DNA of 64,000 bases, from NCBI GenBank assembly GCA_030750975.1, contig JASMHC010000015.1:1-64000 (forward strand). The letters are read 5' to 3'. Under the pieces are notes generated by a model. That model worked only from the letters and a program-made list of their open reading frames with translations, made no database searches and was not told the origin of the DNA. Each line of letters opens with the position of its first letter. Position 1 is the first letter of the stretch. Origin of the DNA: Paracoccaceae bacterium. GTDB lineage: Bacteria > Pseudomonadota > Alphaproteobacteria > Rhodobacterales > Rhodobacteraceae. The translations under genes and the position numbers were made by a program. Positions 21,298 to 27,304 of the stretch are shown here, piece after piece.

Positions 21298-21351
21298 GTC
21301 TCTGCCTACTTTAACCAACGCCCTGCACATCAGTTCTGCGGGGCGCATTTA

Positions 21352-21498
21352 GGTTCGCGCCCGACCCCGAGGGTGGGTTTGTTGCCTTTGAGCGATTTCT
21401 TCGATTTTGATCGACACGTCGCAACGCGCTGATAGATTGCATAAATTCGCGCCCGCCCTGGGGGGCGGGGTCGGGCGCGAACCGGGCCTGCGGCCCGG
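21352..21498. repeat. Long-spaced inverted repeat upstream of rnhB
   Basis: GGTTCGCGCCCGACCCC (21352-21368) and its exact reverse complement (21467-21483) are 98 bases apart. Close to the right arm is another perfect hairpin, CCGGGCC/GGCCCGG (21482-21498), and the segment between the arms contains a GCCC/GGGC stem. The 230-base gap has no supported gene. It may be a structured RNA or a dispersed element; the GCGCCCGACC core recurs in the rsmE element at 26705-26755. Confidence 0.6.
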
Positions 21499-21527: not shown

Positions 21528-22157
21528 ATGGCCGTAACAAGAACCCACCCGAATTTCCAATTCGAACAGGCCGCGCTGAACCGGGGCGCCCGATGTATCG
21601 CAGGTGTGGACGAGGTTGGACGCGGCCCGTTATGCGGGCCAGTGACCGCCGCAGCCGTCATTCTTGACCCGGGCGCCATTCCCGAAGGTCTTGACGATTC
21701 CAAAAAGCTTACCGCCCGCAAACGCGAGGTTCTGTACGACAACATCCTGACCAGCGCCCGATGCAGCATCGCCCATGCCTCGGTCGCGGAAATAGACGAG
21801 CTGAACATCCTGCGCGCCAGCCATCTTGCAATGGAACGCGCCATTGCCGGTCTCGACACGCCGCCCGACCACGTTTTGATCGACGGCAATATGATCCCCA
21901 AAGGTCTGGCCCTGTCGGCCGAAGCGATCGTCAGGGGCGACAGCCGCAGCCTGAGCATCGCCGCCGCCTCGATCATCGCCAAAGTCGCCCGCGACCGGAT
22001 CATGGGCGATTTGGCCGCGCAATTTCCCGGTTATGGCTGGGAAACCAACGCCGGATACGGCACCAAGCAGCATATGGAAGCCTTGCGAAATCTTGGTGTG
22101 ACCCCACACCATAGGCGTTCGTTCAAACCCATCCACAATATCTTGTATCAAGCGTAA
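21528..22157 (+). CDS. rnhB: Ribonuclease HII
   Basis: A 209-residue type-2 RNase H that removes ribonucleotides from DNA. The N-terminal catalytic block GVDEVGRGPLCGPV has the Asp-Glu pair, the third acidic residue is in IDELN and the fourth in LIDGNMIPKG; the family's GYGTKQHMEAL motif is near the C terminus. Length is normal. It lies directly upstream of ccrM in the same direction, but the 105-base gap with a likely promoter suggests ccrM is separately controlled. Confidence 0.95.
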   Translation: MAVTRTHPNFQFEQAALNRGARCIAGVDEVGRGPLCGPVTAAAVILDPGAIPEGLDDSKKLTARKREVLYDNILTSARCSIAHASVAEIDELNILRASHLAMERAIAGLDTPPDHVLIDGNMIPKGLALSAEAIVRGDSRSLSIAAASIIAKVARDRIMGDLAAQFPGYGWETNAGYGTKQHMEALRNLGVTPHHRRSFKPIHNILYQA

Positions 22158-22247: not shown

Positions 22248-23366
<1,119 letters not shown>

Positions 23367-25666: not shown

Positions 25667-26495
25667 GGGTGCGCTGTGGCTCCTTGAAAAGGCAGAGGGT
25701 CCATTGCCCTACATAAGCAAAGCCAATCGCCTGATAAGCCCTTGAGGCGTTTTCATTTGCCGAAAACAGCGTGGCACGGGCAACGCCCTCGGCGCGGGCC
25801 TGCGCCAGATGCAGCGCCACGGCGCGGCGGGCATGGCCCTTGCCCCGCAATTCGGGTGGCGTGAAAACCCCGCCGATCTGCACGATGTCCGGCAGGCGGG
25901 CATTAAAGCCGGTGGTGCACAGGGCGGTGTCGCCGTCCATCAGCACGACATGGGATTTATTGACGACATAGCTGGCATAGTCCGTTTCGGCCACGTGCAA
26001 GGCGTCTTCGGCGGGGGTGTTCAGCGCCTCGATCTCGTAATCGTGCCGCCATTGGATCATCTCGGCCCTACTGGCCTCGGCAAGGGGAACGATGTCCCCT
26101 ACCCCGCCGGGAATGATCAGATCAGAGAGGTCCAGCTCGTATTGCGGCTCGTCATGGTTCAGGGTCGTTTCGGCCTGATCCAGACCGGTGGCCGACAGGA
26201 AAGACCGGCATTGATCCGCCGGGCCGATCACACCGATCAGATCGCGGTCTTTTAAGGCATCGCGACAGGCGCTCCAATCCATCGAGGGGCATTGCGGCAT
26301 GACCATCCCTTCACGGGTGATCGACAGAATATCGGTGATCCGCCCCTGTTGTTTGACCAGCCACATCACGGGCGCGCGCAGGTGATCGCCGTTCAGGCCG
26401 AACGAATAAAGGTTGTTCAGCGGAAACATGTTCTGCGCCGCGCGGGGGGTTAAGAACGCCTCAATCTCTGGGATGTCCGCATCCGTGGCCCACAT
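25659..26495 (-). CDS. GNAT-family N-acetyltransferase
   Basis: A 278-residue acetyltransferase: the N-terminal half resembles the two-domain GNAT group, and the C-terminal half carries the acetyl-CoA loop RGKGHARRAV preceded by IGGVFTPPEL and followed by ANENASRAYQAIGF. Substrate unknown. ATG 26495 shares its A with the TGA of rsmE (TGATG), so translational coupling is likely; GTG 26498 is a minor alternative. Confidence 0.85.
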   Translation of the reverse strand: MWATDADIPEIEAFLTPRAAQNMFPLNNLYSFGLNGDHLRAPVMWLVKQQGRITDILSITREGMVMPQCPSMDWSACRDALKDRDLIGVIGPADQCRSFLSATGLDQAETTLNHDEPQYELDLSDLIIPGGVGDIVPLAEASRAEMIQWRHDYEIEALNTPAEDALHVAETDYASYVVNKSHVVLMDGDTALCTTGFNARLPDIVQIGGVFTPPELRGKGHARRAVALHLAQARAEGVARATLFSANENASRAYQAIGFAYVGQWTLCLFKEPQRTHV

Positions 26496-27304
26496 CACCA
26501 ATCCCCCAGCGCTTGCTGCCAGACGGTCATCGCCACAACGGCTGCGGTATCGGCGCGCAGGATGCGGGGGCCGAGGCTGATGGTGTGGGTAAACGGCAAC
26601 GCCTTCAGACGGGCACGCTCGGCATCCGAGAACCCGCCTTCGGGGCCGATAAGGATTGCCCAACTACCTTCCGGAGAGTTTGTGTCCGGCTGAAAAGCCG
26701 GACAGCGCCCGACCGCCCCCATGGGCGGGCGCTCCGCTTCCGCCCGCGGTCGGGCACTGCCCTTAGTGACTAGTGACAGGCCTTCGCCAACCTCAGCCTC
26801 ATCACAGAACAACAGCTGCCGATCCTCGGGCCAGCTATCCAGCACCTTTGACAGCTTCTGCAACTCGGTCACTTCGGGCACGTATGTCCCACCGCATTGC
26901 TCGGCCGCTTCCACCGCGTGGGCTTGCAACCGATCCTGCCGGATGCGCTCGGAATTGGTGAAATCGGTCTGAACCGGCAGGATCTTTGCCGCCCCCATTT
27001 CAGCGGCTTTTTCGACGATGAAATCAGTACGGGCCTTTTTGATCGGCGCAAACAGAAGCCAGAGATCAGGCGGCATTTGCAGCGGTTTGGTCTGCTCAAG
27101 GCAGGTCAGCTCTCCGCCGCGCTTGCCGGCTTGGCTAACCTCGGCCTGCCATTCGCCGTCGCGCCCGTTGAACAGCGCCACCAATGCGCCCGAAGCCTGC
27201 CGCATCACCCCGAACAGGTAATGCGCCTGATCGCGGTCCAGAGGAACCGTTTGCCCCTGACCCAAAGGGTGATCTACATAGAGCCTGATCTTCGCTTTTT
27301 CCAT
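26495..27304 (-). CDS. rsmE: 16S rRNA (uracil1498-N3)-methyltransferase with internal insert
   Basis: A 269-residue SPOUT methyltransferase that modifies U1498 of 16S rRNA. The family blocks are MGAAKILPVQTDF, ERLRQ-type SERIRQDR, AEQCGGTYVPEV, the knot motif AILIGPEGGFS and LGPRILRADTA. Usual length is about 240-250; the excess is an in-frame stretch of about 33 residues (181-213), rich in Arg, Ala and Pro, just before the IGPEGGFS knot motif. The DNA for that stretch is a set of palindromes (26683-26755). The insertion lies in a loop before the cofactor site, so the enzyme may well remain active. Divergent from ubiA with only 11 bases between starts. Confidence 0.9.
   Translation of the reverse strand: MEKAKIRLYVDHPLGQGQTVPLDRDQAHYLFGVMRQASGALVALFNGRDGEWQAEVSQAGKRGGELTCLEQTKPLQMPPDLWLLFAPIKKARTDFIVEKAAEMGAAKILPVQTDFTNSERIRQDRLQAHAVEAAEQCGGTYVPEVTELQKLSKVLDSWPEDRQLLFCDEAEVGEGLSLVTKGSARPRAEAERPPMGAVGRCPAFQPDTNSPEGSWAILIGPEGGFSDAERARLKALPFTHTISLGPRILRADTAAVVAMTVWQQALGDW
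26683..26755. repeat. Palindromic element inserted in frame in rsmE
   Basis: TGTCCGGC/GCCGGACA (26683-26690 and 26697-26704) is followed by GCCCGACCGC/GCGGTCGGGC (26707-26716 and 26746-26755) with a nested GCGGGCG/CGCCCGC pair (26725-26731, 26741-26747). It is translated as part of RsmE (residues about 184-208). The arrangement resembles protein-coding palindromic elements known from Rickettsia, an analogy only. Confidence 0.7.

Follow-up and report, generated by a model that had tools for sequence, protein, structure and literature searches.

Palindromic repeats translated in frame within genes are established for the Rickettsia palindromic elements (RPEs; PMC2229807, PMC10969869), which measure 105-146 bp (PMC2229807) and, in the first account of them, lay within open reading frames (ORFs) in nearly half of all cases (PMC10969869). 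Palindromic elements of Wolbachia are known from a title in the reference list of PMC2229807, and NEMIS and ERIC include intragenic or fused palindromic repeats (PMC2229807, PMC10969869). Among the GTAG/CGTC repetitive extragenic palindromes (REPs), intragenic copies are recorded in genes that include those for tRNA synthetases and a tRNA pseudouridine synthase, and one recB site is occupied in two Xanthomonas species (PMC3733652). Here we describe a palindromic element inside rsmE, the gene for the 16S rRNA m3U1498 methyltransferase, in a 64,000-nucleotide stretch (the window, G000:C15:1-64000) of a Paracoccaceae genome designated G000 (3.19 Mb in 22 contigs). The element is very probably a Rhodobacteraceae repeat, resembling REPs or miniature inverted-repeat transposable elements, that was inserted in a loop of RsmE, and some of its copies are probably translated now and then into loops that the protein tolerates. 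The features concerned are as follows.

26495..27304, minus strand: rsmE, 269 codons, NCBIfam NF008696
26683..26762, plus strand: palindromic element, 80 nt as aligned to its family, coding on the minus strand for RsmE residues 181-208
26683..26704, plus strand: hairpin 1, TGTCCGGCT-GAAA-AGCCGGACA, arms 26683-26691/26696-26704, 9/9 complementary
26700..26762, plus strand: hairpin 2, outer stem 26700-26716/26746-26762, 17 nt, 88% complementary
26704-26714/26723-26733: alternative inner hairpin of hairpin 2, 11 nt, 91% complementary

The identity of the gene is given by a score of 347.9 bits with NF008696 (cut-off 234), and it is the only RsmE locus found in G000, the second match of the protein search being an element copy read as protein. 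The element consists of two neighbouring hairpins of about 80 nt in all and is very GC-rich. Its reading frame is open and in phase with rsmE, and the conserved stretches beside the loop (FCDEAEVG ... WAILIGPEGGF ... LGPRILRADTAAV) are unbroken. An extra base, T, follows the element in 31 of the 33 copies in our table of flanks. Relative to the homologue in G001, a genome of the same genus, the loop DNA has grown from 78 to 165 nt, a net gain of 87 nt or 29 residues. An earlier note, made from the letters of the window, had proposed an insert of about 33 residues (181-213) built from inverted repeats; the insert and its palindromic construction are borne out, and its extent contracts to residues 181-208 with a gain of 29.

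Similar to the RPEs, the Rhodobacteraceae element is a hairpin repeat that occurs both between genes and in frame in conserved genes, here those for RsmE, acetate kinase (AckA) and the NAD(P)H-hydrate epimerase/dehydratase Nnr, where its residues are apparently tolerated. Compared by description rather than by sequence, and accordingly not classed as an RPE, it differs in its length (about 80 nt, not 105-146 nt), in being GC-rich and in lying mostly between genes, with 5 of 112 copies inside called genes as against nearly half of the RPEs in ORFs. The GTAG/CGTC REPs resemble it in being palindromic, in lying near gene 3' ends in unidirectional or convergent settings, which are also the settings of its own copies, and in being sometimes intragenic (PMC3733652). 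They are, however, 20-40 bp long and numerous in each genome, whereas nine places were found in G000 (150 of 3745 candidates scored), and the Rhodobacteraceae element has no link to the REP-associated tyrosine transposases (RAYTs). No GTAG or CGTC tag, or complement of one, was seen by eye within 26683-26762, the one copy inspected for them. ERIC and NEMIS/Correia are likewise small, non-autonomous, structured and sometimes fused in frame (PMC2229807), but at the Rhodobacteraceae element, in which the ends of hairpin 2 pair with each other, no target-site duplication was visible by eye in 33 flanks. The parallel with Rickettsia drawn in the earlier note is upheld as a mode of action; the rarity outside Rickettsia that it implied is not, in view of the REPs, NEMIS, ERIC and Wolbachia. 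In the limited and mostly non-subscription literature searched, no description of the Rhodobacteraceae element, or of a palindrome in RsmE, was found. The kind is already known; the element family, its coding copies and its repeated placement in RsmE appear to be new. They bring the protein-coding palindrome, best known from the obligate intracellular Rickettsia, into a large group that includes free-living marine bacteria, and since half of the sampled genera carry the family and the RsmE loop is occupied twice, repeat movement, translation of the insert and its decay become testable in the laboratory.

The segment is absent from nearly every close homologue. A protein alignment joined the window RsmE to 29 relatives (L017-L045), the best-matching of the 58 other genomes that gave a match; all 29, same-genus G001 included, lack it. 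A second sample, of 80 RsmE loci from GTDB (L075-L154, the best 80 of 504), lacks it in 78, the exceptions being Roseobacter sp. MED193 (L099) and Roseobacter sp. SK209-2-6 (L088), both of which carry a related element. The two sets overlap at least at L086 (JAQWQJ010000079, 'Paracoccaceae bacterium isolate cluster2_bin.25'), which we take to be the same as G001, and the relatives belong to the Rhodobacteraceae/Paracoccaceae. By these alignments the segment is an insertion. In L121, L130 and L144 the RsmE loop is several residues longer than usual, yet the covariance model of the element, R1 (built from 32 copies), matches nothing there; the RsmE of G040, of the same class and also longer than usual, aligned in one piece and has no element at its locus.

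Other copies of the block, for which the earlier note had called, exist in G000 and across the Rhodobacteraceae, mostly between genes. Neither of the two outcomes that the note had named as refuting its reading was thus observed. By blastn, G000 holds copies at C8:4138 (86% over 77 positions) and C15:413017 (82%) and a partial one at C7:54320 (85% over 47 nt). From their translations we take the first to lie before a nusG-like gene and the second between sucB-like and lpd-like genes. R1 finds nine places in this genome at E<1e-3, the window copy included. In the family search, in which at most three candidates were scored per genome, matches at E<=0.001 came from 148 of 295 genomes (one per genus, G000 being one of them), and include one of 93% over 67 nt and another of 88% over 80 nt. 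Across the class, 9 of 385 genomes matched: five belong to the same family, with E of 1.3e-8 or better, and the remaining four matches are weak and partial (25-45 nt, E 3.5e-4 to 7.5e-4). Since strong matches are confined to the family, the repeat is one of the Rhodobacteraceae, as far as sampled.

Conservation of the structure is evident in the outer stem of hairpin 2, in which 90.5% of cells are paired over 32 sequences. Six of its 17 pairs have changed on both sides, including a paired insertion (columns 32/76) in three copies; its covariation score was reached by none of 500 shuffles and its count of further pair types by 3 of 500, and pairing falls to 29-43% when the partners are slid by one to three columns. 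The outer stem is kept by compensatory changes. Left to itself, RNAalifold picks the alternative inner hairpin alone, for which reason the outer stem was counted separately; the covariation of the one and the preference for the other indicate that the left arm of hairpin 2 has two possible partners. As DNA, 26683-26762 folds better than all of 200 shuffles (z -6.55), as does the coding-strand RNA of 26675-26770 (z -4.47; -58.1 kcal/mol). An Rfam search of 26400-27000 gave no described structured RNA, the best match scoring 15.9 bits against a gathering score of 35. Direct reading also reveals a tandem heptamer, TAGTGAC TAGTGAC, at 26764-26777, adjoining the element inside rsmE; it was not noticed by eye beside other copies among the 33 flanks printed.

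A search of the 80 RsmE loci with R1, covering 533,684 bases at default filters and E<=1, reported one place, L099 3537-3617 (49.7 bits, E 2.1e-6), which falls in the RsmE loop of MED193 in the same orientation to the gene as in the window. Read by hand, this element starts within about one codon of the window's point and in the same codon phase; the two peptides differ after GSA because two single-base length differences part the frames. SK209-2-6 (L088:3487-3618) retains, in frame, the right half of the element only. R1 does not report this half-copy, which rests on its alignment with MED193 (80% over 87 nt), and its loop might represent in-frame erosion of a coding palindrome. In a tree of 81 RsmE proteins, from which thinly filled columns such as the insert were dropped, the window joins L086 (100/79) and then L114 (99/84), and MED193 joins SK209-2-6 (98/90). 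Two changes are needed to place the element on this tree, and one change sufficed in 0% of 200 bootstrap trees. The element label was as clustered in 18 of 500 shuffles, as expected with two of the three element rows being sisters. We read the window and MED193 elements as what are apparently two separate insertions. Formal alternatives are that lineages exchanged the loop, or that a single gain was followed by many losses.

An AlphaFold2 model of the window RsmE (33 sequences, mean pLDDT, the predicted local distance difference test, 78.9) matches solved RsmE structures, the best being 4j3c (E 5.4e-25). Residues 179-211, between strands 163-167 and 215-219, form its only stretch of at least three residues with pLDDT below 50; 34 further residues lie at 50-70. 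Since low values of this order are confined to the region of the insert and the RsmE fold is matched, the most likely outcome predicted is an RsmE enzyme with a floppy loop.

On our preferred reading, a small non-autonomous palindromic repeat would have entered the rsmE loop that connects the strand ending in FCDEAEVG to the strand WAILIG, carried there by some machinery and then translated with the gene. Its tolerance is presumably explained by the disorder of the loop and by a position outside the conserved regions. By extension, coding copies would be survivors that fell in permissive loops and linkers and had a net length divisible by three; in-frame deletion may afterwards wear them down, an outcome to which SK209-2-6 points. 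Several observations weigh against this account. The RsmE copy is the only clearly gene-internal one in G000: among the other eight places, six are outside called genes, L163 overlaps the called start of a gene, and around L161 no gene is called. Copies of at least 60 nt (106 of the 112) have on average 5.47 of 6 frames open, compared with 5.23 in shuffles (maximum 5.52), which is not beyond chance; the open frames follow from a GC content of about 84%, and their agreement with composition gives no sign of a coding role. Y1_Tnp (PF01797), the RAYT domain, is absent from G000 and occurs in 30 of the 295 genomes, the element being present in 16 of these 30 and in 132 of the 265 others, so that no association is seen (overlap counted by hand); mobilization by RAYTs was dropped on the strength of this search. 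Nor did inspection by eye of the 33 flanks, which was not a systematic test, reveal a target-site duplication. That the insert is translated and the assembly correct is, moreover, presumed from the nucleotide sequence.

Of the competing explanations, an ordinary long GC-rich loop with chance palindromes could appeal to the RsmE loop length, which varies by several residues among relatives. It is ruled out for practical purposes by the matching, mostly intergenic copies elsewhere (such as the 93% and 88% matches given above), by the covariation and by the failure of all 200 shuffles to fold as well, and we give it almost no credence. Very strong hairpins might also allow the insert to reside in the gene without reaching the protein, through translational bypassing or RNA excision, or might have misled the assembly. 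With an open frame in phase, however, there is no need to invoke bypassing, and a comparable rsmE is present in MED193, another genome, which makes these possibilities highly improbable. Retention of the insert for a function, its hairpins tuning translation or stability of rsmE mRNA or a basic, proline-rich loop adding RNA contacts, would accord with the shared loop, orientation and codon phase of the MED193 insert and with the coding-strand RNA fold of -58.1 kcal/mol. It is nevertheless improbable: the window and MED193 peptides differ once their frames part after GSA, SK209-2-6 has half of the element, the 78 loci and 29 relatives manage without any, and the loop is modelled at pLDDT below 50.

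Targeted insertion is harder to set aside, although we still regard it as unlikely. A machinery that prefers certain structures, with the RsmE loop and the Nnr linker as hot spots, would explain why two separate elements in RsmE start within about one codon of each other and why the Nnr linker is occupied in two genera. Survivor bias yields the same pattern, however, when only loops and linkers tolerate inserts, and a loop passed between lineages by horizontal exchange or gene conversion could also produce it. A more ambitious proposal, in which the repeat is a recurring source of loops, with preferred sites, a non-RAYT machinery and some inserts kept as useful, strikes us as quite doubtful. 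Insertion of a Rhodobacteraceae repeat into a permissive loop remains the explanation that we favor.

Further coding copies were sought with the peptide of the RsmE frame, which matched in 60 of the 295 genomes, many of the matches being in short or antisense-looking frames. The frame used in MED193 was searched in 21 genomes and matched in six, in frames of up to 323 aa; because the wide search used the RsmE frame only, no frame preference is claimed. Around 31 loci with copies there are 78 frames of at least 150 aa, which at first looked like coding insertions. Twenty were scanned with Pfam, and 12 of these, without a family, were read as antisense and dropped; for the remaining 58 the assessment used only position and inspection by eye. 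Besides RsmE, AckA and Nnr, two more proteins probably have in-frame copies. The proteins under consideration are listed here.

AckA of G085: element at residues 59-86, inside the Pfam match 28-375
Nnr of G153 (L063): element at residues 261-286, domains 37-233 and 313-551
Nnr of G101 (L251): element at residues 220-243, domains 35-198 and 271-508
NlpC/P60-like protein of G263 (L224:3899-4615), beside genes like those of gene transfer agents (GTAs): element at residues 182-205, inside the match 85-228
Protein of G010 (L286): 44-nt partial copy near the C-terminus
Large protein of G123 (L306:3-3065): element at residues 495-521, its strand and frame both differing from those used in RsmE

In AckA, for which 29 other aligned loci are without the element, it seems from the alignment to have taken the place of a section of a variable hairpin and not to be a clean addition. 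Both Nnr elements fall in the linker, whose length varies in 30 other loci, none of which was seen by eye to contain the element peptide; L332 and L357 have other long linkers. The NlpC/P60-like protein is a less sure candidate, its score of 22.7 being below the cut-off of 23. In the translation of the G123 protein, repeated DxDNDG motifs resemble what we take to be FG-GAP/VCBS repeats. Copies 5' of genes for a SerA-like protein (L209), a PBP1C-like protein (L211), an ABC transporter (L216) and a GTA protein (L224, a 1382-aa frame) were judged to lie upstream of the true start and not to be coding. In G000 itself, the copy at L163:1501-1582 (C15:534737-534818) overlaps the called start of the downstream gene; either the start may be miscalled or the copy may encode an N-terminal segment.

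The gene setting of the copies was surveyed in a census of 112 of 150 listed places (three from G000, 29 loci from the family search and 80 more). The source list was ranked by likeness to the window copy, and the 36 weakest places listed and two of G085 were omitted, as was L004, a partial copy at a contig end. Genes were called by a simple, purpose-written codon-usage caller, which calls the window rsmE correctly and is not a validated gene finder. The five copies inside called genes are those of the window RsmE, L063, L251, L286 and L306. A further seven have no gene call on one side and do not enter the neighbor counts; the remaining 100 lie between unidirectional (75), convergent (22) or divergent (3) neighbors. 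The median distance to a 3' end is 31 nt (78 of 119 within 50 nt) and to a 5' end 71 nt (34 of 81), the negative distances of L308 and L315 being kept. Orientation varies: of 88 copies with a 3' end within 150 nt, 34 have the same orientation as the nearest such end and 54 the opposite one. Intergenic copies close behind gene ends probably act, if at all, as 3' structures of transcripts.

The window also contains a second inverted-repeat family, with which the earlier note had linked the element through a shared core near 21352.

21350..21482: second inverted-repeat family, about 131-133 nt, apparently intergenic, upstream of the frame 21528-22157

The core is indeed shared, GCGCCCGACC being exact at 21357 and, on the other strand, at 21469; the repeat is, however, a second, partly similar family rather than another copy, with a weak R1 match (22.3 bits) and a right half that resembles the RsmE element. 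The two ends are found together again at G000:C15:552086-552216, while C14:81058, C14:81377, C18:5759 and C20:15352 each have one of them. From their translations, the frame 21528-22157 is presumably an RNase HII-like gene, and the gene at 22257-23366 resembles what we take to be a CcrM-type adenine DNA methyltransferase.
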